Source: a virus
DNA length: 23,182 nucleotides
Strand: one strand, 5' to 3'
Virus record (IMG/VR): IMGVR_UViG_3300042731_006140
Location: 1 to 23,182 of that record
Shown: positions 1,577 through 22,996 of the stretch, piece by piece
How positions within the stretch are numbered: the first letter of the stretch is position 1
Layout: each line of letters opens with the position of its first letter
Position numbers and translations under genes: made by a program
Notes under the pieces: model-generated
Database searches by the model: none
Told to the model about the DNA's origin: nothing
What the model saw: the letters and a program-made list of their open reading frames with translations, nothing else

Positions 1577-3250
1577 TTATTCCCTACTATAAAAGTTCAT
1601 AATATCAACAAGACCACCTTTTTCATCAAGATTCTCTTTTACTTTATTTAATACATCAGAATTTGTTAATTCTTTTACATCTGACACTTCATTATAAGTC
1701 ATAATATCTCGAATATCACTAGAAACGCTTACGAATCTTGTTTTATCAATTAATGTAGGAGGATCGTATTTTCTTACATACATACAACAAGCAGTTGCTA
1801 ATGCTAAGTCGTCATGACAACCACGATCTGCTTCAACTTTTCCACTAGTTTTAGAAACGAGTCCAGTTAGTTCTAAAGCCAAACGAGTTGATCTAATACT
1901 CTCTGGATATTGCGTAATATATGAATATAACGCATCAATAATTAAAGGTCTAGTTTGTGCATTATTTGAAATACCAGGAACTAATGTGGTATTAGATGAT
2001 TTTCTATTTCGTTTCTCTTTATAAATCATAGATGAGAATTCAGTCATGCTTAATTCTTCTAAAACTTGGTTTCCATAACCACCAGTACTTTCTATAATTA
2101 TTATTCCAGGATACGATCTAGCTGCAATTTGAACAACTTTTACAAAATCCAGAATTTTACACTTTCCTTGGTATTCCCAAACTTGTTCAAGTGTTTCATA
2201 ATTCCATACAGTTATAGCTGACTTATCTTGACCGTGTTCTGGCGCTGTGTCGACACCAATCATATAATATTGGTTTGGAATTGGTTTTTCAAATTCCCAT
2301 ACTTCACCATTAAATATTTTTAGTTTAGCTATTGGTTCTTTTATTGATGATTGAACCTTTTCCATAGTTTCTGCTTCAAAGAACGCTCCCTCTGCTGGTA
2401 AGAATTTTAACTCTAATTCTTGAGCTATTTTTCTTGGATCGTGATCAAACAACGCACACTGTGTTTTATACCAATCTGGATCATCTTTTAATTCTTCGAT
2501 CATCTTCCAGTGAATTACAAATGGTTTAAAGATGTCATCATTTGAAACAGCTCTTGAGTATTGCTCAAAATACCATTTTCCAATACCTACAGTTTTATTT
2601 GGGGTCGATAATATTATTGTTCCATAAGGAACTCCAGATCTTTTTGCTTGCATTTGGTTTGTTGATAGTGCTGGTACTATTGAAGTCCATGCTTCTTCTA
2701 CATAACCAACAAACGCTGCCTCGTCTATAACCAAGAAAGTTATATGTTTACCACGAAGAGTTGCATCTGGTTTATTTGGGTTAACTGGAGAAGCATAAAC
2801 TTTTGCACCATTAGTAAGGATAAATGATTGTTCTGTTCTTTTTGCAAATCCTCTCCCCTGAACCCCCTTTGAAGGTTTCATCCAATCTGGAAGTTTTTCT
2901 ACCATTCCTCTTGCTGCGCGAGCAAAATCAGTTGCTTCTTTGTGGTCTTTAGAAATAATCCCTACAACTACGTTATCATAAAACACAACTAACCATGCTG
3001 TATATGCTTGAATGATTGTAGAAATACCAATTTGCCTACTCTTTAGAACAAGAACGTATTTTTCTTTTTCGATTTTTCTTATAAGCTCAGATTGTTTTTT
3101 ATAAGGAGATAATACTTCGTCTTTTCCTGGTAGTTCGATTTTTATGTATTTTCTACAGAAATATTCAAAATCAACTTTACAACTAAGATATTCTGCAATA
3201 TACTTGGTACCCAATTTTTGAACTTTTTTATTACTTTTTGGTCTTGCCAT
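1577..3250 (-). CDS. terL: Terminase large subunit (DNA packaging ATPase/nuclease)
   Basis: TerL is the motor that cuts concatemeric DNA and pumps it into the prohead. The 557-aa protein has the expected two-domain order. The N-terminal ATPase has a Walker A-like segment LKSRQIGIS (about residues 69-77, K70) and a Walker B FLVIDEAA (D176, E177). A coupling-type motif (IILSTPN) lies near residue 213. The C-terminal RNase H-like nuclease shows IGVDTAPEHGQD (D334), IIIESTGGYGN (E387) and HDDLALATA (D480/D481), matching the acidic triad of T4 gp17-type nucleases. The length is normal for the family. The ATG has AAAGGAG upstream. It is flanked by a tail/baseplate-like gene and a putative metallopeptidase, as expected for a packaging and structural block. 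Confidence 0.96.
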   Translation of the reverse strand: MARPKSNKKVQKLGTKYIAEYLSCKVDFEYFCRKYIKIELPGKDEVLSPYKKQSELIRKIEKEKYVLVLKSRQIGISTIIQAYTAWLVVFYDNVVVGIISKDHKEATDFARAARGMVEKLPDWMKPSKGVQGRGFAKRTEQSFILTNGAKVYASPVNPNKPDATLRGKHITFLVIDEAAFVGYVEEAWTSIVPALSTNQMQAKRSGVPYGTIILSTPNKTVGIGKWYFEQYSRAVSNDDIFKPFVIHWKMIEELKDDPDWYKTQCALFDHDPRKIAQELELKFLPAEGAFFEAETMEKVQSSIKEPIAKLKIFNGEVWEFEKPIPNQYYMIGVDTAPEHGQDKSAITVWNYETLEQVWEYQGKCKILDFVKVVQIAARSYPGIIIIESTGGYGNQVLEELSMTEFSSMIYKEKRNRKSSNTTLVPGISNNAQTRPLIIDALYSYITQYPESIRSTRLALELTGLVSKTSGKVEADRGCHDDLALATACCMYVRKYDPPTLIDKTRFVSVSSDIRDIMTYNEVSDVKELTNSDVLNKVKENLDEKGGLVDIMNFYSRE

Positions 3251-8733: not shown

Positions 8734-9603
8734 TTATATAAACCTCCTTTCATCAAAACCTCCTGGAATGCCTTTCCAATTTATTGCTATTGCTTCAGAT
8801 GTATGTATTGATTCTTCATGTGCACATTTAATAATCCAATCTCGAATATCTTCTCTCTCATTTAATGCTTGAGAAATTAAACGAATTGCATCTTCAACAA
8901 ACATTGGATTCTTTGCTGCTATCTCTGCGATTTTTTGCTCATCTTCCCTTTTTATTATTGGATATGGAAGAGTCTTAAGTTTAGATTCGACAGTTTCAAT
9001 AATATCTTCTAACCAAACATAATTTGGTTCTACAGTTTCAACAACAATATTTGAAAATGATCTTTGATTATGAGGGAAACCACTAACGCTTTTAGATAAC
9101 TCAGCAGAGCATGGACAATATGATGAGTATTGAATTATTACTCCCTGAAAGAATTTAAAAGACATCTTTGATATACCAAATTTTCGAGATGGGTCTATTG
9201 GGTAATATTGCCCTTCAAACATGCACTTATAATAAATTGGAAATTTATTATTTGTAATTGGAGATTTTCTGTTTATTGGTAATCTAAAATTAAATTTCAT
9301 GAAACTTGAGTTTGTTTCAAGATTATTACTTAGATCTTTTAATATTTCTTGAATGAGTCTATGCTTTAAAGGAAGATCAAGATATTTCTTTAAAGTTCTT
9401 ATAAATCTTGACATTGAAATTCCTTTTATATTTTTATTTAGTTGTGTTCTCATAGAAACATTTGCAATTAGTTGGTGATGCCCGCCGTATTTTGATTCTA
9501 ATCTAAACGGAACTTCAACGTTTTCAACTCCAACTTGTTGAATTGGGATTTTAATTTCAGGTTTTGTAGTTTGAATATCAGGAAGGTTGTCTTTTATGGA
9601 CAT
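8734..9603 (-). CDS. folE2: GTP cyclohydrolase IB (FolE2)
   Basis: FolE2 converts GTP to 7,8-dihydroneopterin triphosphate, the entry step of folate and of 7-deazaguanine (preQ0, queuosine) synthesis. The 289-aa length is typical of the family. Diagnostic segments are HHQLIANVSM and KGISMSRFI (family 'KGTHMSRF', about residues 80-87). The metal/active-site segment SYCPCSAELS is followed by HNQRS (family 'PCPCSKEIS...HNQR'). The C-terminal ESIHTSEAIAI corresponds to the family 'ESIHNHDAxA'. The H in KG-T-H-MSRF is replaced by I here, which is a small departure. The start has AAGGAGG upstream. It lies between a zinc-ribbon gene and a small helical protein. In phages it may supply modified DNA bases, but no other pathway gene is in the window. 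Confidence 0.92.
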   Translation of the reverse strand: MSIKDNLPDIQTTKPEIKIPIQQVGVENVEVPFRLESKYGGHHQLIANVSMRTQLNKNIKGISMSRFIRTLKKYLDLPLKHRLIQEILKDLSNNLETNSSFMKFNFRLPINRKSPITNNKFPIYYKCMFEGQYYPIDPSRKFGISKMSFKFFQGVIIQYSSYCPCSAELSKSVSGFPHNQRSFSNIVVETVEPNYVWLEDIIETVESKLKTLPYPIIKREDEQKIAEIAAKNPMFVEDAIRLISQALNEREDIRDWIIKCAHEESIHTSEAIAINWKGIPGGFDERRFI

Positions 9604-9615
9604 ATTTAATCCTCC

Positions 9616-9900
9616 TTAAATAAGTCTCTCACTAACGATCGTTCTCATAACGTCTTTTTCTATTTCAGTTTTCCAAAATTCAAAAGCCACGTAATCTTCT
9701 GAATTTTCGAATAAATTAACGTTGTGTTCTAGGTCGTTTGAGCATATAAATATAATACCCTCATCTTCAAATAAATCGTTGTTTTTATCTCTTTCTATAT
9801 ATCCATCATCATTAAGATAGAAGTATTGTGAGCGGCGACGATATTTCATTACTATCTCGCCGCCACATTCTGGACAATATACTTTTTTATGTTTTGTCAT
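9616..9900 (-). CDS. Small zinc-ribbon-like protein
   Basis: A 94-aa protein that begins KHKKVYCPECGGEIVMKYRR. The CPEC knuckle and a later C-S-N-D-L-E-H (IICSNDLEHN) offer Cys2 plus Cys/His ligands, so a zinc ribbon is likely. An acidic segment lies between them. The ATG overlaps the beta subunit stop codon in an ATGA junction, so it is probably translated together with the polymerase beta subunit. A transcription-associated role is tempting because of this coupling but is not shown. No known family is recognised. Confidence 0.65.
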   Translation of the reverse strand: MTKHKKVYCPECGGEIVMKYRRRSQYFYLNDDGYIERDKNNDLFEDEGIIFICSNDLEHNVNLFENSEDYVAFEFWKTEIEKDVMRTIVSERLI

Positions 9901-12896
9901 TTATGTTCTACTCCCAAGACAGTCAGATAAGAGTTCAATAACTTGACTGATTCTGGAGTTGTATCTAACTCTTTTTTCTCATCTGACAAATCAAATTCTA
10001 TAAGATCTCTAATGTATTTATTCTTCAAGTCAATGCAATCTGATTTTGTTGTTAAAAACTCAAAGAGGTTTTTTGGTGCGTCATGCCCAATAATACAGGC
10101 AGTTTCCATTTCTCCACACCTTTGGCCTCCTTTATTTTTCCTTCCACCAAGTGGTTGTAATGTTCTTTTTGCATAAACACCAATTCCTCTTGCTGCTAAT
10201 TTTTCTTCAGCAATATGAACCATTCTAAAGAAATACATAAAACCTACTGCAATTGGATTAACTAAGAAATCTTTAGAAACAGGATCGTAAATTTTTTGTT
10301 TAAATTTACTATATGTATATTCCATTGCTTTTTTGAGGTCTTTAATTTTCATTGATTCAAAAGGTGGTTGAATAACTTGAAGATCAAAAATAAACTCACG
10401 AGTTATTACTTTGGGAAGTTGTTCAACAAATTGGTTATAATACCAACTATCTTTCGTTTTATCTACAATTTTTATGTAATTCAACAAATATTTTTTAACT
10501 TCATTGTTTGATTTTCCATCTTTTAACATTTCCACTAACTTCTTTTTTAAAGCATATAGAGACATTGAAAGATGTAACTCATAAAGCTGGCCGATATTCA
10601 TCCTGGAAATTATTCCAAGAGGATTAATACAGATGTCTAAATGCCTTCCGTCTTCGAGTTTTGGCATTTTTTCATGTTCAACAATTCTTGAAACAACTCC
10701 TTTATTTCCGTGTCTATTTCCAATTTTGTCCCCAACTTTTATAGGTCTTAAATACACACCATACATCTCAACCTTTAGACCATTAATTTTTTCTCGTTTT
10801 TCTTTATATTTTCCAACGAATGAGAATATATCTAAATTGTTTTCTTTAATAAACTTTTCAGCCTCTGCTCGAGGAAGTTTATCTTTAATTATTTTTTTAA
10901 GGAAATTTTCCCTTTCTTGTTGAACAGCAATTTTTTCTTCAACCCATCTTTCAAATTCTGGAATTTCTTTATTCCAATCATTTGCATATATGTTTATTTC
11001 TGGAATTATAAATTTTTTCTCTGCTTCTAATGAAATTGTTTCACTAAAAACAGAATATAAATCTTCTGAGTTCAAAGTTTTGATCTTAGCATATGGGTTT
11101 CCATTCTCGATAATATCAAACTCATCTGGTAATGGTTTAAATTTTCCCTTTTCTAAACTCAAAAGAACCTTATTTGGACTAATGGCAAATGACAAATCTC
11201 TGTAATGAACTGAAGTTAAAGTTTCTTCATTCACAAGTCGTTTAGAAATTACAATTCCATCTTCGTAGTTATTACCATAATATACCATTACTCCAGTCAA
11301 GAGATTTTTTCCGAAGTTTATATTACCATTTTTACAGAAGTTGCTTTCTGCTAAAACTTCGTTAGCTGTAAATTTATCTCCTGGTTTAACATAAACTTGC
11401 ATAAAATCCATATTTTCAACATAGATTTTTCTATATGAAATGTTAAAAATATCAATTTCGCCATCGTCATATTGAACTATAAGGAATTTTGTGTCGATGT
11501 GAAGAACAACTCCGTTCTTTTTTGCTCTCTTTACAAATTGAGTTTGGTCAGAATATAATCCTTCACAACCAGATGAAATCATGGGTTTGTCAAAGTTTTT
11601 TAACATGATCGATTGTCTCATCTGAGATGAAGCCATTTGAAGTCTAGTTTGGTCATCATGTTCATGGAACGGAACCATAGATACTGGAACTGAGATTGGT
11701 TGCTTATCTAGTTGTTTATTTGTAAATTTTAAATTTTCATCCAAATCTACATTTGGAAGAAGATTTTGTAAAACTCCACAATTATCTCTATCAGGCGTAT
11801 CAACTGGGCAAACTCTCCCGAACATTGTTGGGCAAACATCTCTTAAATGTTTTGGTATATTTTCTCTTTTAAATCCACCTGGTCCAAGAAGACTTATTCT
11901 AGATAACTTTGTTAATTCTTCAATTGGATTAATTGAAAAATCAAACTGAACAATATCAGAAACGTTACATTCAGAAATTATTTGATTTGAATTTATATTA
12001 AATTTTGGCTGCCTACTGGTTCTATTTGAAAAACACAAATCAAATATATTTTTTGATATTTTAGAATATATTACGTATTCAAAACATCTTATACGTTTAT
12101 TTATAAAAAGAGTATCATCAACGTATCCCACTCTTATTGCTTCAACCAATTCATCTAGTATAGTTGGTTGTTTCATAAATTTTGCAGTTAAAATATCTAC
12201 TTTTGGGATTAAATCAAGAGCATACATAATATCTTCGCCCTTTGATTTTGCATTATATTTTGAATATTTCCTTCCAACTTCATGTATAAAATCATCTTGT
12301 GTATAACCTTTAGATGATTCTTTATATAGATTTAAGTCATACATCAAAAGTTCAAATAACTCTTTGCTTTTTTCGTTTGCATTTTTTATTTCTTTTTCGT
12401 ATTTGTTTAATAGAGTGTCTAATCCAAAATATGCAATCATTAGTAATATAAGAGAAACTTTCTTTCCAAGAAAACTAACTTTTACAAAGGGCTCTTCTCG
12501 ATCTTTAAAGATCATTAATGTTGCAACGTTCGTTCTAAATTTAATTGTTTCTCCTCTTGTAACAATTGGTATGTCAAACAATTGAAACAAAGGAATCTTT
12601 TTTCTTCCATTTATTAACATATAATTATTGTTAACTAATTTTGGAATAAATATACTTAGATCAATAGAAGAGTTTCCTTTTTGGAGTCTAATTGCCAATG
12701 TTTGCTTTAAGGTTTTTGTTAATTCTCCAGATGAGAATCTTGAATCTTTTAATCCCAATTCAGTTATATTAAAACCCAATTCTTTTACTGGTTTAACTAT
12801 TTCACTAACTATATCCTCCATCATATTATAATCAGTTTCTCGAATTTTAAAAATGTTCTTTTCGTTTAGCTTGAAAATCGGATTTATAATGTTCAT
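9897..12896 (-). CDS. rpoB: Phage multi-subunit RNA polymerase, beta subunit (single chain)
   Basis: This forms one half of the catalytic cleft of a cellular-type RNA polymerase. The protein is 999 aa, against about 1340 in E. coli, and the N-terminal lobes are shortened. Segments in order: FIPKLVNNNYMLINGRKK near residue 85-100; RISLLGPGGFKRENIPKHLR and CPTMFGRVCPVDTP (about 333-368), the fork-loop region; YYGNNYEDGIVIS (about 538-550), with the E-D pair near the active centre; KVGDKIGNRHGNKGVVSRI (about 719-737); INPLGIISRMNIGQLYELHL (about 756-775); and QPLGGRKNKGGQRCGEMET to LTTKSDC (about 912-952), the C-terminal anchor that contacts beta-prime. All hallmark segments are in one chain. 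The start overlaps the beta-prime stop (ATGA). Confidence 0.95.
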   Translation of the reverse strand: MNIINPIFKLNEKNIFKIRETDYNMMEDIVSEIVKPVKELGFNITELGLKDSRFSSGELTKTLKQTLAIRLQKGNSSIDLSIFIPKLVNNNYMLINGRKKIPLFQLFDIPIVTRGETIKFRTNVATLMIFKDREEPFVKVSFLGKKVSLILLMIAYFGLDTLLNKYEKEIKNANEKSKELFELLMYDLNLYKESSKGYTQDDFIHEVGRKYSKYNAKSKGEDIMYALDLIPKVDILTAKFMKQPTILDELVEAIRVGYVDDTLFINKRIRCFEYVIYSKISKNIFDLCFSNRTSRQPKFNINSNQIISECNVSDIVQFDFSINPIEELTKLSRISLLGPGGFKRENIPKHLRDVCPTMFGRVCPVDTPDRDNCGVLQNLLPNVDLDENLKFTNKQLDKQPISVPVSMVPFHEHDDQTRLQMASSQMRQSIMLKNFDKPMISSGCEGLYSDQTQFVKRAKKNGVVLHIDTKFLIVQYDDGEIDIFNISYRKIYVENMDFMQVYVKPGDKFTANEVLAESNFCKNGNINFGKNLLTGVMVYYGNNYEDGIVISKRLVNEETLTSVHYRDLSFAISPNKVLLSLEKGKFKPLPDEFDIIENGNPYAKIKTLNSEDLYSVFSETISLEAEKKFIIPEINIYANDWNKEIPEFERWVEEKIAVQQERENFLKKIIKDKLPRAEAEKFIKENNLDIFSFVGKYKEKREKINGLKVEMYGVYLRPIKVGDKIGNRHGNKGVVSRIVEHEKMPKLEDGRHLDICINPLGIISRMNIGQLYELHLSMSLYALKKKLVEMLKDGKSNNEVKKYLLNYIKIVDKTKDSWYYNQFVEQLPKVITREFIFDLQVIQPPFESMKIKDLKKAMEYTYSKFKQKIYDPVSKDFLVNPIAVGFMYFFRMVHIAEEKLAARGIGVYAKRTLQPLGGRKNKGGQRCGEMETACIIGHDAPKNLFEFLTTKSDCIDLKNKYIRDLIEFDLSDEKKELDTTPESVKLLNSYLTVLGVEHK

Positions 12897-15589
12897 ATTA
12901 TTTTTTCTCCTTTGAGAATCTTATCCATAACGCCAGAATATCTTCCTTCATGAAGGATCCCTTGTAATATACTTCGTTTTGGATTTGAAAAAGCCATAGC
13001 AAGTATCCAACTTTCTTGATGTGGCACACTCTGGATGCTATAGAAATTTGGTTCAATTTTATCTCTATTTTTTAATAATCTCCACTTTCTAAAATCTTTC
13101 CACATAAGCTGAGAAACTACACATTCAAAATGAACATGATGAATATTTTTATTATAAACGTCAAATAACGAATCTACTATTTCTATATAATTTTTTCTTT
13201 TAAATTTATGAAGTAAGGATGTAACAGAAGCTAAGTCGCCAATAATATCTTGTTGACGCATGTCATTAGATTTAGCTCCTTTTATTGCTGCTCCAGAAGT
13301 ATGAAATGTTCGAAGAACTAATTGAGTTGATCTTTCTCCAAGAGTTTGTGCTGCTATAATTCCAATAAACCTACTATTCAAAACTTTATATAATTCTCCA
13401 TAACATTTTTTACAAATCTTGGGGCTCTTACATAAAATTGGGCTTCTTATTTTAATTACTTTTCCAACATTATTTTCATAATTTTCTTCTGTGATTAATT
13501 CATAACCATCTTTGCTGGTTTTCTTCCAACGATCAACTAACATAGAAGCTTTTCTTTTGTTTTTAACATCTACTTCTAAGCAATCTGCTGTTCCACAATC
13601 TTCAACATCCTCGCTAATTTGTAAGTTTGCGCATGTAAAGATTAGTTTCCTTGATAAATATCCAGAAGTTCCTGTATTTAATGCAACGTCCAGAAGGCCT
13701 TTTCTACAACCATAAGTTGAATAGAAAAATTCTTCTTCTGACAAACCATCTAGCAAACTATGCTTTATTGGCAAAGGTAAAATTTCACCGTCGAAGTTTG
13801 AGATAAAGCCTCTGGTTAGAATTAGTTGTTTAACTTGATCCCAGCTACCTCTAGCTCCTGATTCGATCATATATGAGTATGCAAACTTATTTTTTAAAAA
13901 ATCAGTAACTTTTTTATCTGACAAAGCAGTTAATTCTTCTCTAAAATTTCCCGTATATAATTTGTTTTTAAGCTCATCTGCTTCTTCTACTAAAAAGTCA
14001 TCAAGTGACATGGTTGAACCAAACAATGTAGCATATTTAAAACCAATTCTTTTTATTTCATCAAGAATTTTTGATGCTTCATTTCCTGAATAATTATTTT
14101 TGATATTGTTTAATATATCAATTAAGGTTTTTTTGGTTACAACTTCATCCACCAACTCGTAATCTTCGGGGAGACATTCGTTAAAGATCTTGCGACTTTT
14201 TGTAATTTCCTTTTCTTTAAATTTAACTTTGTTATTTAGATTTTCAAATTTATTTGATGTTAAGGCATAAATTCCTAATATTACATCTTGACTTGGAGTT
14301 GTTGATAAATTTTTATTTGCTGGACTGCTTAAATTTTGTGTTATGAACATTTTTTCAATTACTTCTTGTTTTGCTTCTTCAGTAACTGGAATATAAACAG
14401 CCATTTGATCTCCATCAAAATCTGCATTAAATGGTGGACAAACCAAGGGATGGATCTTGATTACAGAACTGATAGTTAACTTTATTTTAAAACCTAACAT
14501 ACCAAGTCTATGTAAAGATGGTTGTCTATTCAAAATACATACTTCATTTTTAATAATATCTTCACATATTCTATATAAGACTGTTGATTTTGTTTCAATA
14601 CATTTGTCAACAAAATCAATTGCTTTATTGAGTAATTTATATTTTCCAATTTCAATTATCTTTTTAGCAACTGGTAATTTAAATATTTCTAAGACCATAA
14701 AATATGGGAGCGCACATTCAGTTAAATTTAAAGTTGGGTCTGGAACAATTACTGCTCTCCCAGAAAAATCAATTCTTTTTCCTAAAATATTTCCTCGTAT
14801 TAATCCTTCTTTTTTTGACATCTTTGCTAAAATTTCAGTATATAGCTCATTTACATCTTTTTGTAATTGTTTAAAGTAAGTATAATATAAAACTTTATCT
14901 TTATGAAGGTTAATGATAGTTTCCCTCATTGCTTCTTTTTTAGTTAGTATCTGAACATAATATCTATTTATTTTGTCCATAAGTTGTTTATTTTTTCCGC
15001 CTACTGGAGATGCTGGCCTTAGATCTGGTGGTAAAACAATAACATTTTTTATCAATAAATTATCAATATTATCTAAAATCATTTTCCACTCTTTGAGACC
15101 ATCTTCTGCCCCATCAGTTGCTATAATTTCAACGAGCTTTCTAATCGCTTCTGTTTTTTCCCAAGTTTGTGCACCTTTTGGAATTTGCTTTTGAGAAAAC
15201 TCAACAGCAAGGTTGGCACCATCTAGGTATAAAATGCTTTTATCTTGTTTCATTAAATCATCCAATGCGCTTTGTAGATTTTTTCCTTCTATATTAGTCA
15301 ATAAGTCATAAAATAATGGGTTTATAACTGGGATTGGAAGCGCAATTTTTGCAAATCGTTTTCGTCTTTCGTCACTATTGACAATATCGACGTTACAAAA
15401 ATCACATTTCCCGCCAGATTTTGAAACTCCATAATATTTTCCACATTGGCATGTATAATTTTTAATTGGACCAAAAATTTGCTCAGAGAATAACCCATTT
15501 GGGTGGTAATGCTTTTTTCCCATGATTTTTATAGACGTCACTTCGTCTAGATTTTCACAAAATTTTTCATAGTTTAAAATTTTTGGCAT
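12893..15589 (-). CDS. rpoC: Phage multi-subunit RNA polymerase, beta-prime subunit (single chain)
   Basis: This is the catalytic, magnesium-binding subunit. The protein is 898 aa, against about 1400 in E. coli, so it is compact. Features in order: GLFSEQIFGP and zinc finger 1, CQC-x12-CDFC (C47, C49, C62, C65); VLPPDLRPASPVGGK (rudder/lid region, about 185-199); GNILGKRIDFSGRAVIV (about 266-282); ILNRQPSLHRLG (about 352-363); NADFDGDQMAVYIP (388-401) with D390, D392 and D394 for magnesium; SGARGSWDQVKQLILTRGF (bridge helix); GCRKGLLDVALNTGTSGYLSRKL (trigger loop, about 627-649); zinc site 2, DCGT...LCKSPKICKKCYG; and QLVLRTFHTSG. It starts four bases after a 68-aa gene, with a GAGGAG site. 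The sequence looks bacterial-like rather than split as in phiKZ-type jumbo phages. Confidence 0.96.
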   Translation of the reverse strand: MPKILNYEKFCENLDEVTSIKIMGKKHYHPNGLFSEQIFGPIKNYTCQCGKYYGVSKSGGKCDFCNVDIVNSDERRKRFAKIALPIPVINPLFYDLLTNIEGKNLQSALDDLMKQDKSILYLDGANLAVEFSQKQIPKGAQTWEKTEAIRKLVEIIATDGAEDGLKEWKMILDNIDNLLIKNVIVLPPDLRPASPVGGKNKQLMDKINRYYVQILTKKEAMRETIINLHKDKVLYYTYFKQLQKDVNELYTEILAKMSKKEGLIRGNILGKRIDFSGRAVIVPDPTLNLTECALPYFMVLEIFKLPVAKKIIEIGKYKLLNKAIDFVDKCIETKSTVLYRICEDIIKNEVCILNRQPSLHRLGMLGFKIKLTISSVIKIHPLVCPPFNADFDGDQMAVYIPVTEEAKQEVIEKMFITQNLSSPANKNLSTTPSQDVILGIYALTSNKFENLNNKVKFKEKEITKSRKIFNECLPEDYELVDEVVTKKTLIDILNNIKNNYSGNEASKILDEIKRIGFKYATLFGSTMSLDDFLVEEADELKNKLYTGNFREELTALSDKKVTDFLKNKFAYSYMIESGARGSWDQVKQLILTRGFISNFDGEILPLPIKHSLLDGLSEEEFFYSTYGCRKGLLDVALNTGTSGYLSRKLIFTCANLQISEDVEDCGTADCLEVDVKNKRKASMLVDRWKKTSKDGYELITEENYENNVGKVIKIRSPILCKSPKICKKCYGELYKVLNSRFIGIIAAQTLGERSTQLVLRTFHTSGAAIKGAKSNDMRQQDIIGDLASVTSLLHKFKRKNYIEIVDSLFDVYNKNIHHVHFECVVSQLMWKDFRKWRLLKNRDKIEPNFYSIQSVPHQESWILAMAFSNPKRSILQGILHEGRYSGVMDKILKGEKII

Positions 15590-15800: not shown

Positions 15801-16346
15801 TTATGTAATCCTACTTGTTTTATAAAACTCTTTGCCTGGTGCATAATAACAATGGTCTAAATTCCAATGGTGTAGATCTTCTCTTATACTTCTCCAGAGA
15901 TGATAATTTAAAAAAGTTTCATAGTAATCTGGATTAAAGCAATAATGACCATCTCTATAATCTACATTTGGATGGTTTGCAGTAAATACAAAAATACTTT
16001 TTATCAAATAATTTTCAGATATACTATAAGGTGCTACTCCATGTCCAGTATTATCTTTAAAACGATTACAATGTATTTGGTATTTTTCAATAATTAAATC
16101 ATTACATACTTTCTCTAATAAATAATATTTTCCATTTTTCTTTAAATATTTTGGAACTATTTTATCATAGAAAATGCAATTCAAATGTGCTTCCGTCTTA
16201 TAGATTTCAATGTCTTTTAATAATCTTAAAGAAGTATCTACATTTTTATAAAATTTTATATCATTTAAAAATGATCTTGTTGTGTTTCTTGGTTTATAAT
16301 TTTTAGGCGCCCCCATATTCTTTAATGAGGTGAATACAAAATTCAT
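15801..16346 (-). CDS. E2-like (UBC-fold) protein with HPN...Cys motif
   Basis: This 181-aa protein carries VFTANHPNVDYRDGHYCFNP (about residues 120-139). In ubiquitin-conjugating E2 enzymes the pattern is HPNh...G.hCL, with the active Cys eight residues after the Asn. Here H125-P126-N127 and C136 are nine residues apart, one residue longer than most E2s. The preceding ENYLIKSIFVF fits the strand before HPN, and the following YHLWRSIREDLHHWNLDH fits the helix after the active-site loop. The N-terminal 100 residues are basic and less recognisable. The start at 16346 has AGAGGAGGG upstream and overlaps the E1-like gene by 44 bases; the alternative ATG at 16316 has no site. I infer thioester-linked Ubl transfer; unproven. 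Confidence 0.7.
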   Translation of the reverse strand: MNFVFTSLKNMGAPKNYKPRNTTRSFLNDIKFYKNVDTSLRLLKDIEIYKTEAHLNCIFYDKIVPKYLKKNGKYYLLEKVCNDLIIEKYQIHCNRFKDNTGHGVAPYSISENYLIKSIFVFTANHPNVDYRDGHYCFNPDYYETFLNYHLWRSIREDLHHWNLDHCYYAPGKEFYKTSRIT

Positions 16347-17163
16347 TTACCCTCCTCTCAAACCGTACAACATAACTAGAATCGTCTTTTTCGATCAATT
16401 GTAGTAATTTAGGTATTACATCCACAGGAATATTCAAACTATCCTTTGGAATTATACTTCTGGTGTTTTCTAAACCACCAATGACAATTTCAATATCTTG
16501 TTTTTTATTTTTAGTATAAATTGGTTTGAGGTTTTCTTCAATTTGGATCAGTCTTTCAGAACCTTTATAAGCATCACAAATCATATCTTCTCGATTCTGC
16601 AAAATTCCCTGTATGTCTTCTTTAACTGCTGGTATTAAACTGTTTATATCTACTGTTTGAACTAATTGGTTCTTTAATAGTGTGTATATTTGTTCACTGT
16701 TTATTATTCTTGTTGCAAAAAACGCGGCTGTATTTATTTCATCTTTCATTAAGTTTATTAAATATCTTCCAGGAATTGGATTATTACAATAAACATTTTT
16801 CTTACAATTAATTACAAGAAAATTTTCTGAAATATATAACTTCATGTCAATTTCTTTTTTTCTTGTACAAATAATATCTCTACAATCTATCACTAAATCG
16901 CATTTTGGTAACTTAGTTATTCCTTCTTCGTATTTTTCATGTATCTTTGTAACTTCGACATTATTACTAGCAAATCTAAATACCGCGTTTACTTTTGAAT
17001 CTCCTACGTCAGTTTTCTTGAACATTGACGTTGCTAAATTTTTTACCTCGACAAAATCGGGGTCTATCGTTACGAGATGCTTCACTTGATCTAGTTCTGA
17101 AAGGTGCTTACAAAGAAAACTACCTAAGCTTCCAAGACCTATTACACATATTTTTTCAAACAT
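16303..17163 (-). CDS. ThiF/E1-like Rossmann protein, divergent second copy
   Basis: E1-like proteins adenylate the C-terminal Gly of ubiquitin-like proteins. This 286-aa protein has CVIGLGSLGSFLC (nucleotide loop, G9-x-G11-x-x-G14) and TIDPDFVEVKNLATSMF (D34, N42), where the Arg usually found after NLx is Ala. It also has GDSKVNAV (K57) and DLVIDCRDIICTRK (D93 and D96, like the 'D-C-T-D-N...R' segment of MoeB/ThiF). Candidate Cys residues are C120 and C126. The C-terminal 120 residues resemble nothing I know. The lost Arg suggests reduced or altered adenylation, or a partner-binding role. The start has AAAGGAGGT at good spacing. It overlaps the E2-like gene, suggesting the two act as a pair. 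Confidence 0.75.
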   Translation of the reverse strand: MFEKICVIGLGSLGSFLCKHLSELDQVKHLVTIDPDFVEVKNLATSMFKKTDVGDSKVNAVFRFASNNVEVTKIHEKYEEGITKLPKCDLVIDCRDIICTRKKEIDMKLYISENFLVINCKKNVYCNNPIPGRYLINLMKDEINTAAFFATRIINSEQIYTLLKNQLVQTVDINSLIPAVKEDIQGILQNREDMICDAYKGSERLIQIEENLKPIYTKNKKQDIEIVIGGLENTRSIIPKDSLNIPVDVIPKLLQLIEKDDSSYVVRFERRVNEFCIHLIKEYGGA

Positions 17164-17193
17164 GTATTACAGACCTCCTTTCAGAATTGATTT

Positions 17194-17218
17194 ATTGGGG
17201 GCAAAGATTGCCCCCAAT
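17194..17218. terminator. Terminator-like perfect inverted repeat
   Basis: An 11-bp perfect stem (17194-17204 with 17208-17218) closes a 3-base loop; its G/C core is a run of five G-C pairs. On the plus strand it is followed by a run of six T (17218-17223), which is the intrinsic terminator pattern. On the minus strand, where all genes lie, the sequence after the stem is AATAAATCAATT, a poor U-tract. It sits between the Ubl stop and the E1-like gene's ribosome site. It may attenuate or stabilise the minus transcript, or block antisense transcription. Confidence 0.6.
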
Positions 17219-17234
17219 TTTTTGATTAAAGGTA

Positions 17235-17693
17235 TTAACCTTTCTTTCCGGTGGGTTTCAAGAACTCAAGACGATCTTCTTCTTTAAGAACATAATCGTT
17301 ACCCACTTCTTTTCCGTCTACTAGACCAGTTGACATACGAGTTACATTTAGAACTTCTCGTAAGTATTCTGCAACTTCACCAACTGTTCTACCAACAACT
17401 GGAAAGTTCCCCGTATTTGCCCCACAGGATACTTCAATGGTTGTTGCTGTTCTATTACCAAAATTAGCTTCTGGCTTATTCATAACACTTGTAAGTTGTG
17501 CCTGAAGTCCACTCATTGGCTTTCCTGTGGTAACAGTAGCTGAAGCTCCACTATCCTGTTCGGACAAAATGGCTTCAATTACTTCAGCTTTTGGGCTCTT
17601 GCTTACGCCTGAAATTCCCAATTCTCTAAATGCCATCTTTTTCATTTCTTTGGCATTCATGTTTTCAAGTTCTTGACGTGTGTAAAGTGGCAT
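17235..17693 (-). CDS. Ubiquitin-like (beta-grasp) protein with N-terminal SAP/Rho-N-like domain
   Basis: A 152-aa protein. Residues about 84-149 show a beta-grasp pattern: TTIEVSCGA (strand), NFPVVGRTV (strand), VGEVAEYLREVLN (helix), TGLVDGKEVG (strand), and YVLKEEDRLEFLKP (the 'L..gDrLeF' segment of ThiS/MoaD-like and bacterial ubiquitin-like proteins). It ends in TGKKG with a free C-terminal Gly and no extension, so no processing step is needed. PRTRC protein C-type Ubls end in a comparable GxKG. Residues about 6-45 (RQELENMNAKEMKKMAF... to EVIEAILSEQ) look like a SAP/Rho-N helix-extended-helix domain that could bind nucleic acid. A Ser/Thr/Gly-rich linker joins the parts. It lies between two E1-like genes, with AGGAGG before the ATG. 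Confidence 0.82.
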   Translation of the reverse strand: MPLYTRQELENMNAKEMKKMAFRELGISGVSKSPKAEVIEAILSEQDSGASATVTTGKPMSGLQAQLTSVMNKPEANFGNRTATTIEVSCGANTGNFPVVGRTVGEVAEYLREVLNVTRMSTGLVDGKEVGNDYVLKEEDRLEFLKPTGKKG

Positions 17694-17701
17694 ATTTCCT
17701 C

Positions 17702-18391
17702 CTATTTCATAAATTTTCTTACATTTCTTGATTTTGGTACAACTGACATTTGTTCAATATCAAAGTAAACCTCAGAAATACCAACATTACCCTGAATAAC
17801 AACATTCCAAAATGCAAAACACATAATAGATGCAGCTGCTAGATTGGCAAAATATAACTGAGGCTCAGATTTTGATAGTTCTTCGCAAGACATTTCATTT
17901 GGAGATTTATCATCTGGGTTTGCAATTTCTGGGTGATGAAGGCACAAGTCTGGCGTTAAGTCACGACCCTCCTTTCTGACATAAATTTGTACACTTCCAT
18001 CTATCCAGTCATTGCCTCCAGAAATCAAAATTCCATTCTGTAATGTCCAGAAATAATTTGATACGATTAATCTTGTTTTGTGATTATCAACACAGAGAAG
18101 GACAATATTATTCTCTTTTATTACTTCATTAATCGTATCATTTATTATAAATTCAGGATGGCTATTAAAATTAATGTTTGGATATTTCTCTTCTAGTTCG
18201 ACTGCTTTTATTTCAGCTTTATTTCCCATCCTCTCAAATTCCTGCCTTTCTAGATTCTTATATTCATATTCGTCACCATCGACTAGCAGGACATTAATAT
18301 CTTCTTCAAATTTAGAATAATTTAGGAATCTACATAATCTTCCTGATAAAATAGATCCGATTCCCCCAAGTCCAATTATAGTAATATCCAT
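17702..18391 (-). CDS. ThiF/E1-like activating enzyme (PRTRC ThiF-like)
   Basis: A 229-aa compact Rossmann protein likely to adenylate the Ubl C-terminus. MDITIIGLGGIGSILSGRL gives the nucleotide-binding loop (G7, G9, G12). LLVDGDEYEYKNLERQEF gives D38, D40, N46 and R49, the conserved 'D.D....NL.RQ' of ThiF/MoeB/E1 proteins. K62 fits the catalytic Lys position and CVDNHKTR (D102) the ATP/Mg site. SPNEMSCEELSKSEPQLYFAN places C169 where PRTRC ThiF proteins carry a Cys followed by acidic residues, a candidate thioester site. It lies between JAB and Ubl genes, with 7-base and 8-base gaps. AAAGGA precedes the ATG. It is the better-conserved of the two E1-like proteins in the cassette. Confidence 0.85.
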   Translation of the reverse strand: MDITIIGLGGIGSILSGRLCRFLNYSKFEEDINVLLVDGDEYEYKNLERQEFERMGNKAEIKAVELEEKYPNINFNSHPEFIINDTINEVIKENNIVLLCVDNHKTRLIVSNYFWTLQNGILISGGNDWIDGSVQIYVRKEGRDLTPDLCLHHPEIANPDDKSPNEMSCEELSKSEPQLYFANLAAASIMCFAFWNVVIQGNVGISEVYFDIEQMSVVPKSRNVRKFMK

Positions 18392-18398
18392 AGTTTAA

Positions 18399-19700
18399 TT
18401 ATCCTTTCAAATATTTTCTTAACCAAGCTATTGGTTTATTCTTTAGATTTTCTGGAATTTCATCGGGCTTAGGGATTTTTTCTCCAGCTCTATGTCCATC
18501 TTCAAACACTTGACCATAAAGAAATTCGGGGCTCTCATGTTGTTCTTTAACAATATTTTCTATGTGTTGCTCTCCGAATTTTTCTTTATCTGAACCGGTT
18601 CCATCATCTGCTGCCATGAATACAGTATCATCTGGGATAAAATTATTTATTGGGTTTTCTACTTCATCGTCGTCTGGTTCTGTATATTGTTCCAGTGCCC
18701 AATCTATTTTGGTATCTCGAAATACACACTCACAGCATGGATTAAAGTCATCGTCATCAAGATCATAATCATTATCATTATCAAATGATTTAGCTTGTTC
18801 ACTTATAACCTTTTGGTCGAGTTCAAGGGGATTTTTATTTACAAGCGGATTTCCAATGTGAGCATAATATGCTTGCCAAAATTCCGCCCAACCTTGCTTA
18901 TCAACTCTATTCTGAATGTTTTTCCAGTTCCCTTTATTAAATGTGGGAACTACATACTTAACTTTCTTCAACCAATTTCGGTTAAATGTTTTTTGGGAAA
19001 CTGGAATATTTATAAAATATCTGGGTGTATAATATTTAGATTTATATGGTTCGGATTCCACTTCTATAAGTTTCCCGTTTATATATTTATAAACTTTTCT
19101 ATAAGATTGAGTTTGAATTTCTTCAATCTTTTTTAATTTATCTATGTAGTCTTCTGGTTCTCCAACAAATCTTGTTCCATTTGCAGTTATTGAAAGAGAA
19201 ACTCCCACGTTGTCACTTGCAACATAACCAACAGTGATATGTAAGCCATCATTATCTGTATACTCATCTTTATCATCAGTTGGAGAATGAAATGCAGACA
19301 TGTTACCGTGACTATGAATGTCTCCAAGTAAAGTATAATCTCTTATTTGTATATTTCGATCATATTCGCATTTTGCCATGCTTACTTCTTGCTTTGGAAT
19401 AACAATTTTAAAGTTCTCGGTGTTTTGGTTGTAAAATAATAAAGCAACTGCTTCAGCTCTATGTTTTTCATGAACTGCTTTAAAGAACTCAACAACTTTC
19501 GCGAACATGGGTGCTGGAATCATGGGTATATTTAAAGAGGCTGTTGATTTAATTTCATTTAAAATAGAAATTTTGTCAACTTTAGCTATACTTTCTAAAA
19601 CACCCATTTTTTTCTTTAAATATACTCCATCTTTTGCAACTATATAACAAATATCGTCTTCTGGAAGTTTTTCGCTATCATGTAAATAAATATTAAACAT
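18399..19700 (-). CDS. JAB/JAMM metallo-isopeptidase (Prok-JAB, PRTRC-A-like)
   Basis: The start chosen is ATG 19700-19698 (433 aa). AAAGGAG lies nine bases upstream, and it overlaps the 863-aa gene by 8 bases. A frame-open start at 19796 would overlap far more. The JAMM zinc motif is complete: E83 (AEAVALLF), H129-S-H131, seven residues, S139, two residues, D142 (DIHSHGNMSAFHSPTDDKDE). The AFHSPTDDKDE segment closely resembles PRTRC-A / Prok-JAB proteins, as does the N-terminal YIVAKDGVYLKK. JAMM enzymes cleave isopeptide bonds after a ubiquitin-like C-terminus. The C-terminal half is unusual: an Asp-rich stretch, a CCEC cluster, then an acidic low-complexity tail. Its neighbours are the E1 and Ubl genes. 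Confidence 0.87.
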   Translation of the reverse strand: MFNIYLHDSEKLPEDDICYIVAKDGVYLKKKMGVLESIAKVDKISILNEIKSTASLNIPMIPAPMFAKVVEFFKAVHEKHRAEAVALLFYNQNTENFKIVIPKQEVSMAKCEYDRNIQIRDYTLLGDIHSHGNMSAFHSPTDDKDEYTDNDGLHITVGYVASDNVGVSLSITANGTRFVGEPEDYIDKLKKIEEIQTQSYRKVYKYINGKLIEVESEPYKSKYYTPRYFINIPVSQKTFNRNWLKKVKYVVPTFNKGNWKNIQNRVDKQGWAEFWQAYYAHIGNPLVNKNPLELDQKVISEQAKSFDNDNDYDLDDDDFNPCCECVFRDTKIDWALEQYTEPDDDEVENPINNFIPDDTVFMAADDGTGSDKEKFGEQHIENIVKEQHESPEFLYGQVFEDGHRAGEKIPKPDEIPENLKNKPIAWLRKYLKG

Positions 19701-22284
19701 TAAGGAATCTCCTTTCGTCAAGATCAAATGAAAGAATAGATAATCTATTTTTAACAAACATACCATAAAAGTTTGGTAATGCTTCCACTTTTTCAAACTC
19801 CATCCATTGATTTTGCGTATATCTTGGACTTAAAAATCCAAATGGTTTGGCGTTTCGTCTTGTCTCGTTATTAAATGTTTGTATCTGTGGTTGACTAGCA
19901 ATCTTATACAAACTAGTTCGTATGTACCTTATTCCCCTATTATATGGATTACTAAATAATATTACTGGGTCAGAACTAATTCTTTGACTAGTAATAATTA
20001 TATCTCCTGGTTGTAATTTTATTTTTGTTAAGTCAATTGGAGAAATAGTTAATTTATTTTGTTCTGAATCATCTGTTGGAATTATCTCAAAATCTTCCTT
20101 TAATTGATCTGGCCAAATAGTACAACAATTTGAACATAATACTAATGGAATATCTCCGCCGGTATCTGTTAAAAATCCAATTATCATATTAATATCTTTT
20201 TGTGGGAAATTACATATTCGTGGTTTGTTGGATTTAATCATAGTTCCAGAACGAATTCCATTATATTCATTTGTTATATGTCTAACAGTCCCAGTTTTTA
20301 TAAACATATAATTAGGAGAAGTATATTGACGTAGTGTATCTTGTTCGATAAATGGGTATGAAATAATACTACCATCATCAGATTTTGCGTTAATATAAAG
20401 TTTACCACTATCTTCAGTTTTAAATTCAGTAATAGTTTTTGGTTTTATCATTTCAGTTGGATTATCCCAATCAGAAATAACTATCCAATCTCCTACAGAA
20501 AACTCTAAAGTATAGTTAAAACTTTTTACTTTAAGTGTTTTTCCACCATTTATAAGAAGTTCTGAAATGACATCATTAAAATTAGGCACAACATATTTAC
20601 AATTTTCTTTTTTAATAATTCCATTTGTTGGGTGGAAGTAACCAAGTCCGGCATCACTTTCATTAGTGTATTTATCCACTAGTCCATATAATCTTGTTCC
20701 ATGCATAAATATTTTTGGAATTTTTTCTAGTTTATTATGATCATAAGTTTTGGTCCAAATATTATTTGAGTAATTAATTAAACGTTCACTACCAGTATTC
20801 GTATCAATAAATTTAGCTTGAAGGTTACCATTTCTATGAACACCCATACCGATATATCTACCACAAAATGCTACTTGAGATGGCAGCCCACTGACAGTTC
20901 CAGTAGTAAGTAAGTATTCATTTCCTTTTTTTAATTTTATTCCATCTATTTCAGGATCTTTTAGGTTTACTTTTTTAATATTTTTTATATTCTCAAGTAA
21001 ATAAAAATCTTTTCCTAGTTTTGCCTCAACTTTTCCATCAAAACTATATCTCAAATATTGAAGTTCTTTATAACCTTTTACGCCGTAACTATCAATTTCT
21101 ACTATATCTCCTGCTTTTATTTTGGTTCCTTTAATTGTAGCTGTATGAAAACACCTTTGTTCTTCTGTTTTCTTTCTAAGAAAAGCTACTACTTGTTTTG
21201 TTAGTTTCATTATGATTTTTTTATTAGACGGAGAAAGCAGTCGAACATGTGAAATATTTCCACATTTTTTACCTAAAAATGAAATAACGAAAAACCTTTT
21301 CCCTTTTATAATAATTTCATCTTCAATAAATAGATTTATTCCATTTCCAAGATTAATATAATTTGCCATATTATCATAAATTTTTGTGCTATCAGTTTTT
21401 GTAAGATTCGTAACAGAAGAACTTTTATCAAATAATCTTGTAATTTCAGAGAAGTTTGAAATTCCATAATATTTTTCATTATGTTTTCTGCGCGAAATAT
21501 AGACGTCACCTAATTCTAATAGTATTTCTTTAAGATTTCTTTTATGTGGAACCCAATCTACATTATAAACAAACATTGGATCAACTTTAGTATAATGTTG
21601 CCAACTTAATAAGTCACCAACATATTGATTATTTTCATAAGAAATTACGTTTGTTACATAATCTTCGTTAAAAGTCGATCCCCAAAAACGATTGATTACT
21701 CCGATAATTGCTTCATCAATACTAATATAATATTCTCCACGACCCAAACATACAGCTTGATTTTCTGATATGTTATAAAGGGGAATTTTATATAGAATAT
21801 CGCCAATCCCTTGAAGGGGTAAGTGCCGTAGAAAAACCATTAGTGTGGATAAACTGGCGGTCTCAGTATTAAATACCATAATATATTCTATGAAAGGAAA
21901 TGCTAAAGTATATTTTTGTTTTCTTTTTCTAGCAGGTAAATTTTTATAACCAAATTCAATTAGTTTTCCTTGGGTCTTTAACTTTGATAAAGCACCACTT
22001 AAATTAACGCTAGCAATAATAGTTCTTATTTCTGGATCTTGTTCAATAACATAAACAGTATGTCTAGAAGATAACTTTTTAATAAGTCTACAATTTCTTG
22101 GAATAACAAGCTCTCTGCTTTTTGGTGCACCAAATGAAGCATTCATTCGATCAAGAAGAACATCAGTTTCGATAAACTTGTTGTTTGTAATATCTATTGA
22201 TTTTTCACCTTCGCCATAAGCAGAAACGTCACAAGTATAAATTTTAGAAAAATTTTCATTAATTCGTAGTTCTTTAATTATCAT
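19693..22284 (-). CDS. Large protein with Prok-E2 family D (PRTRC-B)-like domain
   Basis: An 863-aa protein. Residues about 125-210 match the PRTRC-B / Prok-E2_D pattern: LAFPFIEYIMVFN, then PLYNISENQAVCLGRGEYYIS, then INRFWGSTFNED. In that family the Cys of 'h.hC.G' (here C179) is the proposed catalytic Cys of an E2-like fold lacking the usual HPN His. The remaining 650 residues are beta-rich with recurring 'h.h..GD.h.h' units (IKAGDIVEI about 389-397, LKKGNEYLL about 451-459, FSVGDWIVI about 595-603, LQPGDIIIT about 757-765). These suggest repeated small SH3-like barrels for substrate or partner binding. This is far longer than usual PRTRC-B proteins. The start overlaps the upstream stop (TAATG), with GAGGTG before it. 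Confidence 0.72.
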   Translation of the reverse strand: MIIKELRINENFSKIYTCDVSAYGEGEKSIDITNNKFIETDVLLDRMNASFGAPKSRELVIPRNCRLIKKLSSRHTVYVIEQDPEIRTIIASVNLSGALSKLKTQGKLIEFGYKNLPARKRKQKYTLAFPFIEYIMVFNTETASLSTLMVFLRHLPLQGIGDILYKIPLYNISENQAVCLGRGEYYISIDEAIIGVINRFWGSTFNEDYVTNVISYENNQYVGDLLSWQHYTKVDPMFVYNVDWVPHKRNLKEILLELGDVYISRRKHNEKYYGISNFSEITRLFDKSSSVTNLTKTDSTKIYDNMANYINLGNGINLFIEDEIIIKGKRFFVISFLGKKCGNISHVRLLSPSNKKIIMKLTKQVVAFLRKKTEEQRCFHTATIKGTKIKAGDIVEIDSYGVKGYKELQYLRYSFDGKVEAKLGKDFYLLENIKNIKKVNLKDPEIDGIKLKKGNEYLLTTGTVSGLPSQVAFCGRYIGMGVHRNGNLQAKFIDTNTGSERLINYSNNIWTKTYDHNKLEKIPKIFMHGTRLYGLVDKYTNESDAGLGYFHPTNGIIKKENCKYVVPNFNDVISELLINGGKTLKVKSFNYTLEFSVGDWIVISDWDNPTEMIKPKTITEFKTEDSGKLYINAKSDDGSIISYPFIEQDTLRQYTSPNYMFIKTGTVRHITNEYNGIRSGTMIKSNKPRICNFPQKDINMIIGFLTDTGGDIPLVLCSNCCTIWPDQLKEDFEIIPTDDSEQNKLTISPIDLTKIKLQPGDIIITSQRISSDPVILFSNPYNRGIRYIRTSLYKIASQPQIQTFNNETRRNAKPFGFLSPRYTQNQWMEFEKVEALPNFYGMFVKNRLSILSFDLDERRFLNV

Positions 22285-22675: not shown

Positions 22676-22996
22676 TTACCTCACTTTTACTTTATATTGC
22701 ATATCCCCAGCTTTTAAATACTCAACTTTGTCAATTGGTACAGATCTCCATGCTTTTTTCTCAAGATCATAAACTCGTATGATTTTATTCTCTTGCACAA
22801 GTTTGAGTATATTTGCCATATCTATGCTTCTAGATTTTGGATAATCTTTTTTTGGAATTCTGGAAAAATCTAGAGTACAACGCATAATTCTTGTTGTTCC
22901 ATCCTTTTTCTCAAATTTTACAGTTACTTCGCCTTCTTCTCGAATTTTTCTCCAGAATCCAATTGCTGTATCAATTATATTTTTATCTACTGCCAT
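22676..22996 (-). CDS. Small phage protein, DUF2693/SH3-like
   Basis: A 106-aa protein with VTVKFEKKDGTTRIMRCTLDF at about residues 24-44, a block resembling the 'V.F.KkDGt.R.M.CTLdf..IP' pattern of small SH3-fold phage proteins (DUF2693 type). It is followed by RIPKKDYP and a later IIRVYDLEKKAWRSVPIDKV, whose 'VYDLEK..WRS' part also recurs in that group. The match is from memory. Function unknown; possibly a nucleic acid or protein binding barrel. A GAGGAGG site lies upstream, inside the end of the preceding partial gene. Confidence 0.6.
   Translation of the reverse strand: MAVDKNIIDTAIGFWRKIREEGEVTVKFEKKDGTTRIMRCTLDFSRIPKKDYPKSRSIDMANILKLVQENKIIRVYDLEKKAWRSVPIDKVEYLKAGDMQYKVKVR

Follow-up and report, generated by a model that had tools for sequence, protein, structure and literature searches.

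A probable two-module ubiquitin-like conjugation system encoded beside the RNA polymerase genes of a lineage of large phages

Bacterial conjugation of ubiquitin-like proteins (Ubls) by activating enzymes (E1), conjugating enzymes (E2) and JAB proteases is known mainly from host defence, namely Bil and the cyclic oligonucleotide-based antiphage signalling systems (CBASS), and from the PRTRC cassettes of plasmids. Here we analyzed a viral fragment of 23,182 bases from IMG/VR (IMGVR_UViG_3300042731_006140, hereafter the window), which encodes a terminase, FolE2, the RNA polymerase subunits β and β′ and a set of six genes whose predicted products are an E2_D-like protein, a JAB protease, two ThiF-type E1 proteins (E1a and E1b), a Ubl and a small E2-like protein (E2x). 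The six genes are contiguous on the minus strand (15801–22284), directly upstream of the β′ gene and on the same strand, as listed in a preliminary description made from the sequence alone; only the start of the JAB gene had to be corrected, with ATG at 19700 replacing a mechanically assigned TTG at 19796, and the gene thus delimited shares its first 8 bases with the 3′ end of the E2_D gene. Purine stretches resembling Shine–Dalgarno sequences lie at the starts of most of the six genes. We regard it as fairly probable that the set is a working phage-encoded Ubl conjugation system, composed of two modules and serving as a core function in a lineage of large phages equipped with an RNA polymerase of their own.

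Operon type 6d comprises a Ubl, a JAB protease, an E1-like protein and an E2-like protein without the classical His (Iyer, Burroughs and Aravind 2006, PMC1779556). Judged by its predicted products, the E2_D–JAB–E1a–Ubl core of the window set is of this kind, known as PRTRC, with a Ubl bearing a C-terminal Gly, a JAB protein, a ThiF-type E1 and an E2_D-type protein adjoining one another. The likeness to PRTRC claimed in the preliminary description is upheld by the scores: JAB matches best to PRTRC_A (TIGR03735; 4e-17, 62.3 bits against a cut-off of 101.8, that is, homologous and outside the curated family) and E1a to PRTRC_ThiF (TIGR03736; 46.4 bits for E1a and 20.4 bits for E1b, both below the cut-off of 144.75). 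The E2_D protein and the Ubl have no PRTRC_B or PRTRC_C match in NCBIfam, and no ParB was found among the 20 window proteins scanned. Because all PRTRC scores lie below the NCBIfam cut-offs, we call the core PRTRC-like rather than PRTRC; the window set further differs in its 863-residue E2_D protein, the SAP-like head of its Ubl, its second E1–E2 pair and the neighbouring phage RNA polymerase. PRTRC-like sets are also carried by Bacillus phage KLEB27-3, Vibrio phages D69, D148 and D181 and the gut phage MT835919, with E2_D, JAB and ThiF genes in a row and, in KLEB27-3 and D69, tandem Ubl-like repeats ending in KG. These sets have been annotated piecemeal and not as a Ubl system, and they differ in that phage records give only weak and partial matches to E1b. 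A near-complete Ubl gene set is thus indeed present in the window, as first described, but its core is not novel; since PRTRC-like cores already occur in other phages, novelty is confined to the E1b–E2x pair and to the fixed context. For E1b, there is no relative among 72,556 plasmids, which agrees with the earlier view that this E1–E2 pair is foreign to PRTRC, and no close or full-length relative in 50,697 phage records, which yielded weak partial matches only. Within the records searched, the E1b–E2x pair was found solely in the lineage to which the window belongs.

In type II CBASS, the conserved C-terminal Gly/Ala of cGAS is activated and conjugated by Cap2 (PMC10097602). The window set resembles this system in that the closest PADLOC relatives of E1b are Cap2 E1 domains, in that E1b has a conserved Ala/Gly tail as cGAS does, and in that E2x looks like an E2 with a catalytic Cys; it differs in having E1 and E2 as separate proteins, the tail on E1b and no conserved loop Cys in E1b. 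The window proteins scanned gave no match to a nucleotidyltransferase family and no effector, so the cGAS/DncV-like nucleotidyltransferase (CD-NTase) of CBASS was not found. With Bil (BilABCD) and Bub, the set shares Ubl, E1, E2 and JAB parts, and the E1b profile weakly matches Citrobacter BubCD (1.8e-4); PADLOC returned no BilA, BilB or BilC match and only weak ones for BilD. The phage set has two E1s and two E2s and lies among phage core genes, whereas Bil and Bub are bacterial defence or stress operons. We therefore rejected membership in PRTRC, Bil or CBASS, given the scores below the cut-offs, the missing Bil matches and the lack of a CD-NTase among the window proteins scanned. We found no open-licence paper describing such a phage set, although subscription papers and preprints could do so, and a 2021 jumbo-phage survey and a 2020 huge-phage paper contain no mention of JAB or ThiF. 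Relative to the open literature searched, the new elements are the lineage-specific E1–E2 pair, the E1b tail, the SAP–Ubl fusion and the fixed link to the phage RNA polymerase.

As the evidence from single sequences was mixed (ThiF and JAB matches over the cut-off, the others sub-threshold or absent), we turned to related loci. Scanning viral contigs with E1a yielded 60 of them, in which genes were tabulated by profile search; the order in most of them is WYL_2, a small gene, E2_D, JAB, E1a, Ubl, a variable insert, E1b, E2x, a second small gene, rpoC and rpoB. The block from JAB to E2x is present in 49 loci, or 38 after dereplication of near-identical ones, so the six-gene order, which the preliminary description had proposed to look for in other viral contigs, recurs at mean identities of 27–55%. 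Mean pairwise identity is 55% for E1a, 47% for Ubl, 36% for both E1b and JAB, 28% for E2_D and 27% for E2x, compared with 62% for rpoC. In a separate scan with E1b, all 45 loci have the gene beside rpoC and 44 of the 45 also have E2x. A third scan, with rpoC, gave 80 loci: all six genes are found in 60, a contig end cuts 11, five represent a distant RNA polymerase paralog or relatives, one is a distant ortholog (L207) and three are real exceptions. One distant rpoC paralog (L211) shares a 277-kb contig with L061 and is a second β′ gene, about 30% identical, as in phages that have virion and non-virion polymerases. Counting as assessable only close rpoC orthologs whose contigs extend 6 kb or more upstream of the gene, the complete set occurs in 60/63. 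For each of the six proteins, distances are correlated with those of rpoC (r = 0.56–0.87; 0/500 permutations), the 207–312 kb contigs of the lineage contain exactly two ThiF genes each, E1a and E1b, and in most close pairs the non-synonymous divergence (dN) is well below the synonymous divergence (dS) for all six genes, indicating purifying selection. The six-gene set is thus a vertically inherited core block in a lineage of large phages.

This pattern bears on what the set is for. Type II CBASS (PMC10097602) uses E1, E2 and JAB parts against phages, and so does Bil according to a passage in PMC12660748 that cites Hor 2024. The phage set could accordingly modify or de-modify host defence proteins, or its JAB could strip Bil or CBASS conjugates. 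Genes for counter-defence are usually patchy, whereas nearly all members of the lineage have this set, its place beside rpoC is fixed and it diverges in step with rpoC; moreover, JAB by itself would suffice for stripping; we consider a counter-defence role improbable. The inheritance next to RNA polymerase argues for a core housekeeping role in the phage over sporadic counter-defence, and against an acquired counter-defence gene, counter-defence being one of the roles suggested in the preliminary description. No isolate of the lineage was found, and rpoC identity to phage isolates does not exceed about 30%. That all members are metagenomic fragments might suggest a non-enzymatic remnant or a binning artefact. 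This explanation is refuted by the recurrence of the set in dozens of independent contigs drawn from many samples, with synteny and active sites conserved and purifying selection evident, and we regard it as scarcely credible. One close pair, L026–L029, has dN near dS for E2x and counts against a working conjugation system. Three loci (L126, L127 and L128) come from contigs binned as a Thermoplasmatales archaeon, where the cassette is complete and the contig is probably a phage contig placed in the wrong bin, and as Moraniibacteriota/Falkowbacteria, where only the core set is present.

E1a (17702–18391, minus strand; 229 residues) matches ThiF with 57.5 bits (1.5e-15), PRTRC_ThiF being its best NCBIfam match. 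The R49–Q50 pair, K58, D102 and the loop Cys C169, which lies in an SCEE segment, are kept in 38/38 relatives, so the adenylation site is complete. The C-terminal ends of E1a show no conservation (n = 90). An in-frame TAG noticed in E1a of L007 is upstream of the start codon, and hence outside the gene. The Ubl (17235–17693, minus strand; 152 residues) has an N-terminal Rho_N/SAP-like domain (1.1e-6) followed by a C-terminal domain predicted to be beta-grasp-like, with a weak TGS match (0.008), and it ends in GKKG. Among its relatives, Rho_N is matched by 34/34, TGS by 31/34 and ThiS by 25/34, and KG stands at the end or within two residues of it in 38/38. The SAP/Rho_N-like head is unusual and suggests that the tag may confer nucleic-acid binding on the protein it modifies. 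Residues beyond KG occur in 12 of the 38 Ubls, and L007 has a tandem SAP–Ubl–SAP–Ubl; both features fit with processing by JAB. Phage tandem Ubl precursors, in which two to four units are joined and every junction has a KG, lie at L007:8447–9403, L069:6936–7565 and L003:2676–3425. The resemblance of the Ubl to ThiS and TGS, the ThiF-like E1s and the known occurrence of JAB with sulfur carriers in bacteria (Iyer 2006, PMC1779556) would also be compatible with sulfur-carrier chemistry, in which the Ubl would donate sulfur in the manner of ThiS or MoaD, either for a cofactor of the phage or for the modification of tRNA. We consider this very unlikely: domain scans of the window revealed no rhodanese, ThiG, MoaE or cofactor genes adjoining the set, two Cys-containing E2-like proteins would have no role there, and the Ubl carries its SAP-like head.

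The JAB protein (18399–19700, minus strand; 433 residues, PRTRC_A-like) scores 29.0 bits against Prok-JAB (cut-off 25). Its JAMM motif is complete (E115, H161xH163x7S171xxD174) and is kept in 37/38 dereplicated phages; together with the GKKG end of the Ubl and the HPN...C arrangement of E2x, it had been pointed out beforehand, and all three are borne out by active sites that are nearly invariant across the 38 phages. The C-terminal extension contains a conserved CxxC, and relatives share a PC-x-x-C pair beyond a variable acidic region (window 18399–18750). The E2_D-like protein (19693–22284, minus strand; 863 residues) consists of a UBC-like N-terminal part of about 260 residues and a remainder of about 600. 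Against Prok-E2_D (PF14460), the N-terminal part reaches 24.4 bits (1.3e-4; cut-off 25); the family is matched by 31/36 relatives of this region (best 1.3e-7), and N171 and C179 are invariant in 36/36. In the C-terminal 600 residues (window 19693–21500), R668, G680, F693, D707, P713, S718–N719 and R821 are invariant. Two or more E2_D-like genes stand in tandem in L050, L064, L065, L067 and L068. An additional Ubl-like match before the E2_D gene of L046, L048, L049 and L061 was rejected, since a SAP-like domain and a disordered tail account for it and there is no Ubl.

E2x (15801–16346, minus strand; a small UBC-like protein of 181 residues) has no family match in domain scans, and 2/38 relatives match UQ_con, at 0.006. 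H125, P126 and C136 are present in 38/38 and N127 in 37/38, an HPN...C arrangement that is that of eukaryotic E2s and is seen in 4/1141 background open reading frames of similar length. The AlphaFold2 (AF2) model built from the 38-sequence alignment has a predicted local distance difference test (pLDDT) score of 82.8, and all 50 of the 50 VIA matches listed are eukaryotic E2s (Z 5.9–7.0, with 109–124 residues aligned). Bacterial E2s of Bil and Cap2 are not among the VIA matches listed, an absence that proves nothing. For the first 262 residues of the E2_D-like protein (pLDDT 90.7), the first 12 VIA matches are E2 enzymes (Z 4.4–5.3; root-mean-square deviation about 5 Å). In a viral model library, the best Foldseek match of E2x is a phage protein labelled ‘Type II CBASS E2’ (E 0.016, probability 0.93). 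The profile–profile comparison of E2x and E2_D is weak, yet the Asn and Cys of E2_D align with those of E2x. Some of the structural evidence weighs against these assignments: Foldseek returned no match under E 0.001 for either model, and the VIA Z-scores (at most 7.0 for E2x and 5.3 for E2_D) are in a range that unrelated folds can also reach. Because Z below 8 can reflect a common arrangement, the VIA scores alone are not decisive, and with no significant Foldseek match the fold argument rests on VIA alignments, family hits and motifs. Taking the models together with the motifs and PF14460 matches, UBC topology is likely for both E2x and the E2_D domain; the preliminary description of both proteins as E2-like is supported by AlphaFold models that have ubiquitin E2s as the top solved-structure matches, at modest scores.

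E1b (16303–17163, minus strand; 286 residues) matches ThiF with 43.2 bits (3.4e-11) and keeps GxGxxG, D34, D36, N42, K57 and D93. Its PDB profile matches are MoeB, ThiF, Cap2 and UBA5, and in PADLOC it matches CBASS E1–E2 (1.2e-9), with Cap2-type E1 domains as the nearest relatives there. Its conserved C-terminal domain ends in GGA in the window, and the consensus end is IELIPETGAA; the last residue is Ala in 70 of 74 non-redundant sequences (GAA in 46, GGA in 15, GSA in 3). Loci in which E2x is altered or absent (L184, L063 and L050) still have the tail. In L063, the gene after E1b (12641–13315) keeps HPN and has apparently lost the Cys; in L050, HPN is not recognisable in the corresponding gene (12098–12706); E1b has a GGA tail in both. 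The Ala tail and the precedent of cGAS and Cap2 make it plausible that the modifier of the E1b–E2x pair is E1b's own C-terminus. By analogy, E1b may carry its own modifier, the GAA/GGA-ending domain being adenylated by the catalytic domain of E1b and handed to E2x, a proposal we make tentatively. E1b or a released C-terminal piece might then be a tag apart from the Ubl, and one phage might have two Ubl-type systems, which is equally tentative. The lack of both the RQ pair and a conserved loop Cys, and a C-terminal domain without detectable relative by Pfam scan, PDB profile search or profile comparison with the Ubl, speak against the self-modifier proposal; alternatively, the domain could be a ubiquitin-fold-like E2-docking domain. 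A Chou–Fasman type estimate was not used for it, as such estimates agreed with the AF2 models at only 52–59%.

The RQ pair and the loop Cys are present in E1a and absent from E1b, which has N–S in place of RQ and, as its sole conserved Cys, C94 in a Rossmann strand. This difference weighs against two complete pathways and could instead indicate a single one, in which active E1a and partly degraded E1b form a heterodimeric E1 and one Ubl is passed to both E2s, on the model of AOS1–UBA2 or of BilD, which has one inactive and one active half (PMC11354881). The presence of the six genes together in 60/63 assessable contigs would also suit a single pathway. However, E1b matches the active adenylation domains of MoeB, ThiF, Cap2 and UBA5, and the two blocks are lost reciprocally. 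L189 has E1b and E2x alone in the slot that separates WYL_2 from rpoC, with HPN...C intact and E1b ending in ETASA, and no further ThiF, JAB or Ubl is encoded on this 92-kb contig; in L195, by contrast, E2_D, JAB, E1a and Ubl occupy the slot and E1b–E2x are gone. Both blocks are gone from the slot in L193. Beyond this lineage, the core set alone is carried by further phages and by some bacterial contigs of metagenome-assembled genomes. The reciprocal losses indicate that E1a/E2_D/JAB/Ubl and E1b/E2x are separable in inheritance, and suggest that the set consists of two modules. Against this, each loss is seen in one contig, and since these contigs are not complete genomes, each is provisional. 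Overall, we consider a single pathway unlikely, if not remotely so, and prefer two modules; the additional E1 and E2, first described as an add-on, are present as a pair, but the losses suggest that they are not a simple addition.

For the two-module system, we infer the catalytic steps and the order of transfer from conserved residues. In module 1 (E2_D, JAB, E1a and Ubl), JAB would trim the Ubl precursor after KG, and E1a would adenylate the Ubl C-terminus and take the Ubl onto Cys169, from where it would be transferred to the E2_D protein at Cys179; the long C-terminal part of the E2_D protein may select or hold targets. The Ubl with its SAP-like head would thereby be placed on target proteins, and JAB would remove it again. 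In module 2 (E1b and E2x), E1b would adenylate a C-terminus that E2x would accept on Cys136 beside HPN. The targets of the Ubl may be phage transcription or virion proteins, which is a guess; given the SAP-like head and the adjoining RNA polymerase genes, a role in regulating phage transcription is a sensible starting assumption rather than a result.

The neighbourhood of the set is that of phage core genes. The β′ gene (rpoC; 12893–15589, minus strand), which has Pfam Rpb1 domains, adjoins the set in all relatives examined; the β gene (9897–12896) lies beyond it, and both are unsplit (9897–15589). On the other side lies a WYL_2 Sm-like protein (22676–22996, minus strand; PF10902, 2.5e-10) whose position is conserved. 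The window also encodes the large terminase (1577–3250) and FolE2, a GTP cyclohydrolase (8734–9603; PF02649, 1.7e-67), whose gene is near the cassette in many relatives and possibly serves deazaguanine DNA modification. In part of the lineage, a gene of 80–95 codons stands between Ubl and E1b (L044:11328–11582, L053:11205–11486, L058:11941–12183 and others), with the pattern KLIKxFE...GGxPKLQITRSYxKKD...GRL; its product is perhaps a candidate PC4-type single-stranded DNA-binding protein. The p129 gene was aligned with a 170-codon gene of L002 in case the two were orthologs; they are probably unrelated.

If phages of up to about 300 kb keep this set among their core genes, a virus would own a eukaryote-like tagging pathway. 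PRTRC-like systems would thereby gain a testable biological setting, the lytic cycle with its defined transcription programme, and the natural arrangement of two E1s and two E2s would be useful for studying the evolution of conjugation cascades. It also raises the testable idea of an E1 able to carry its own modifier.

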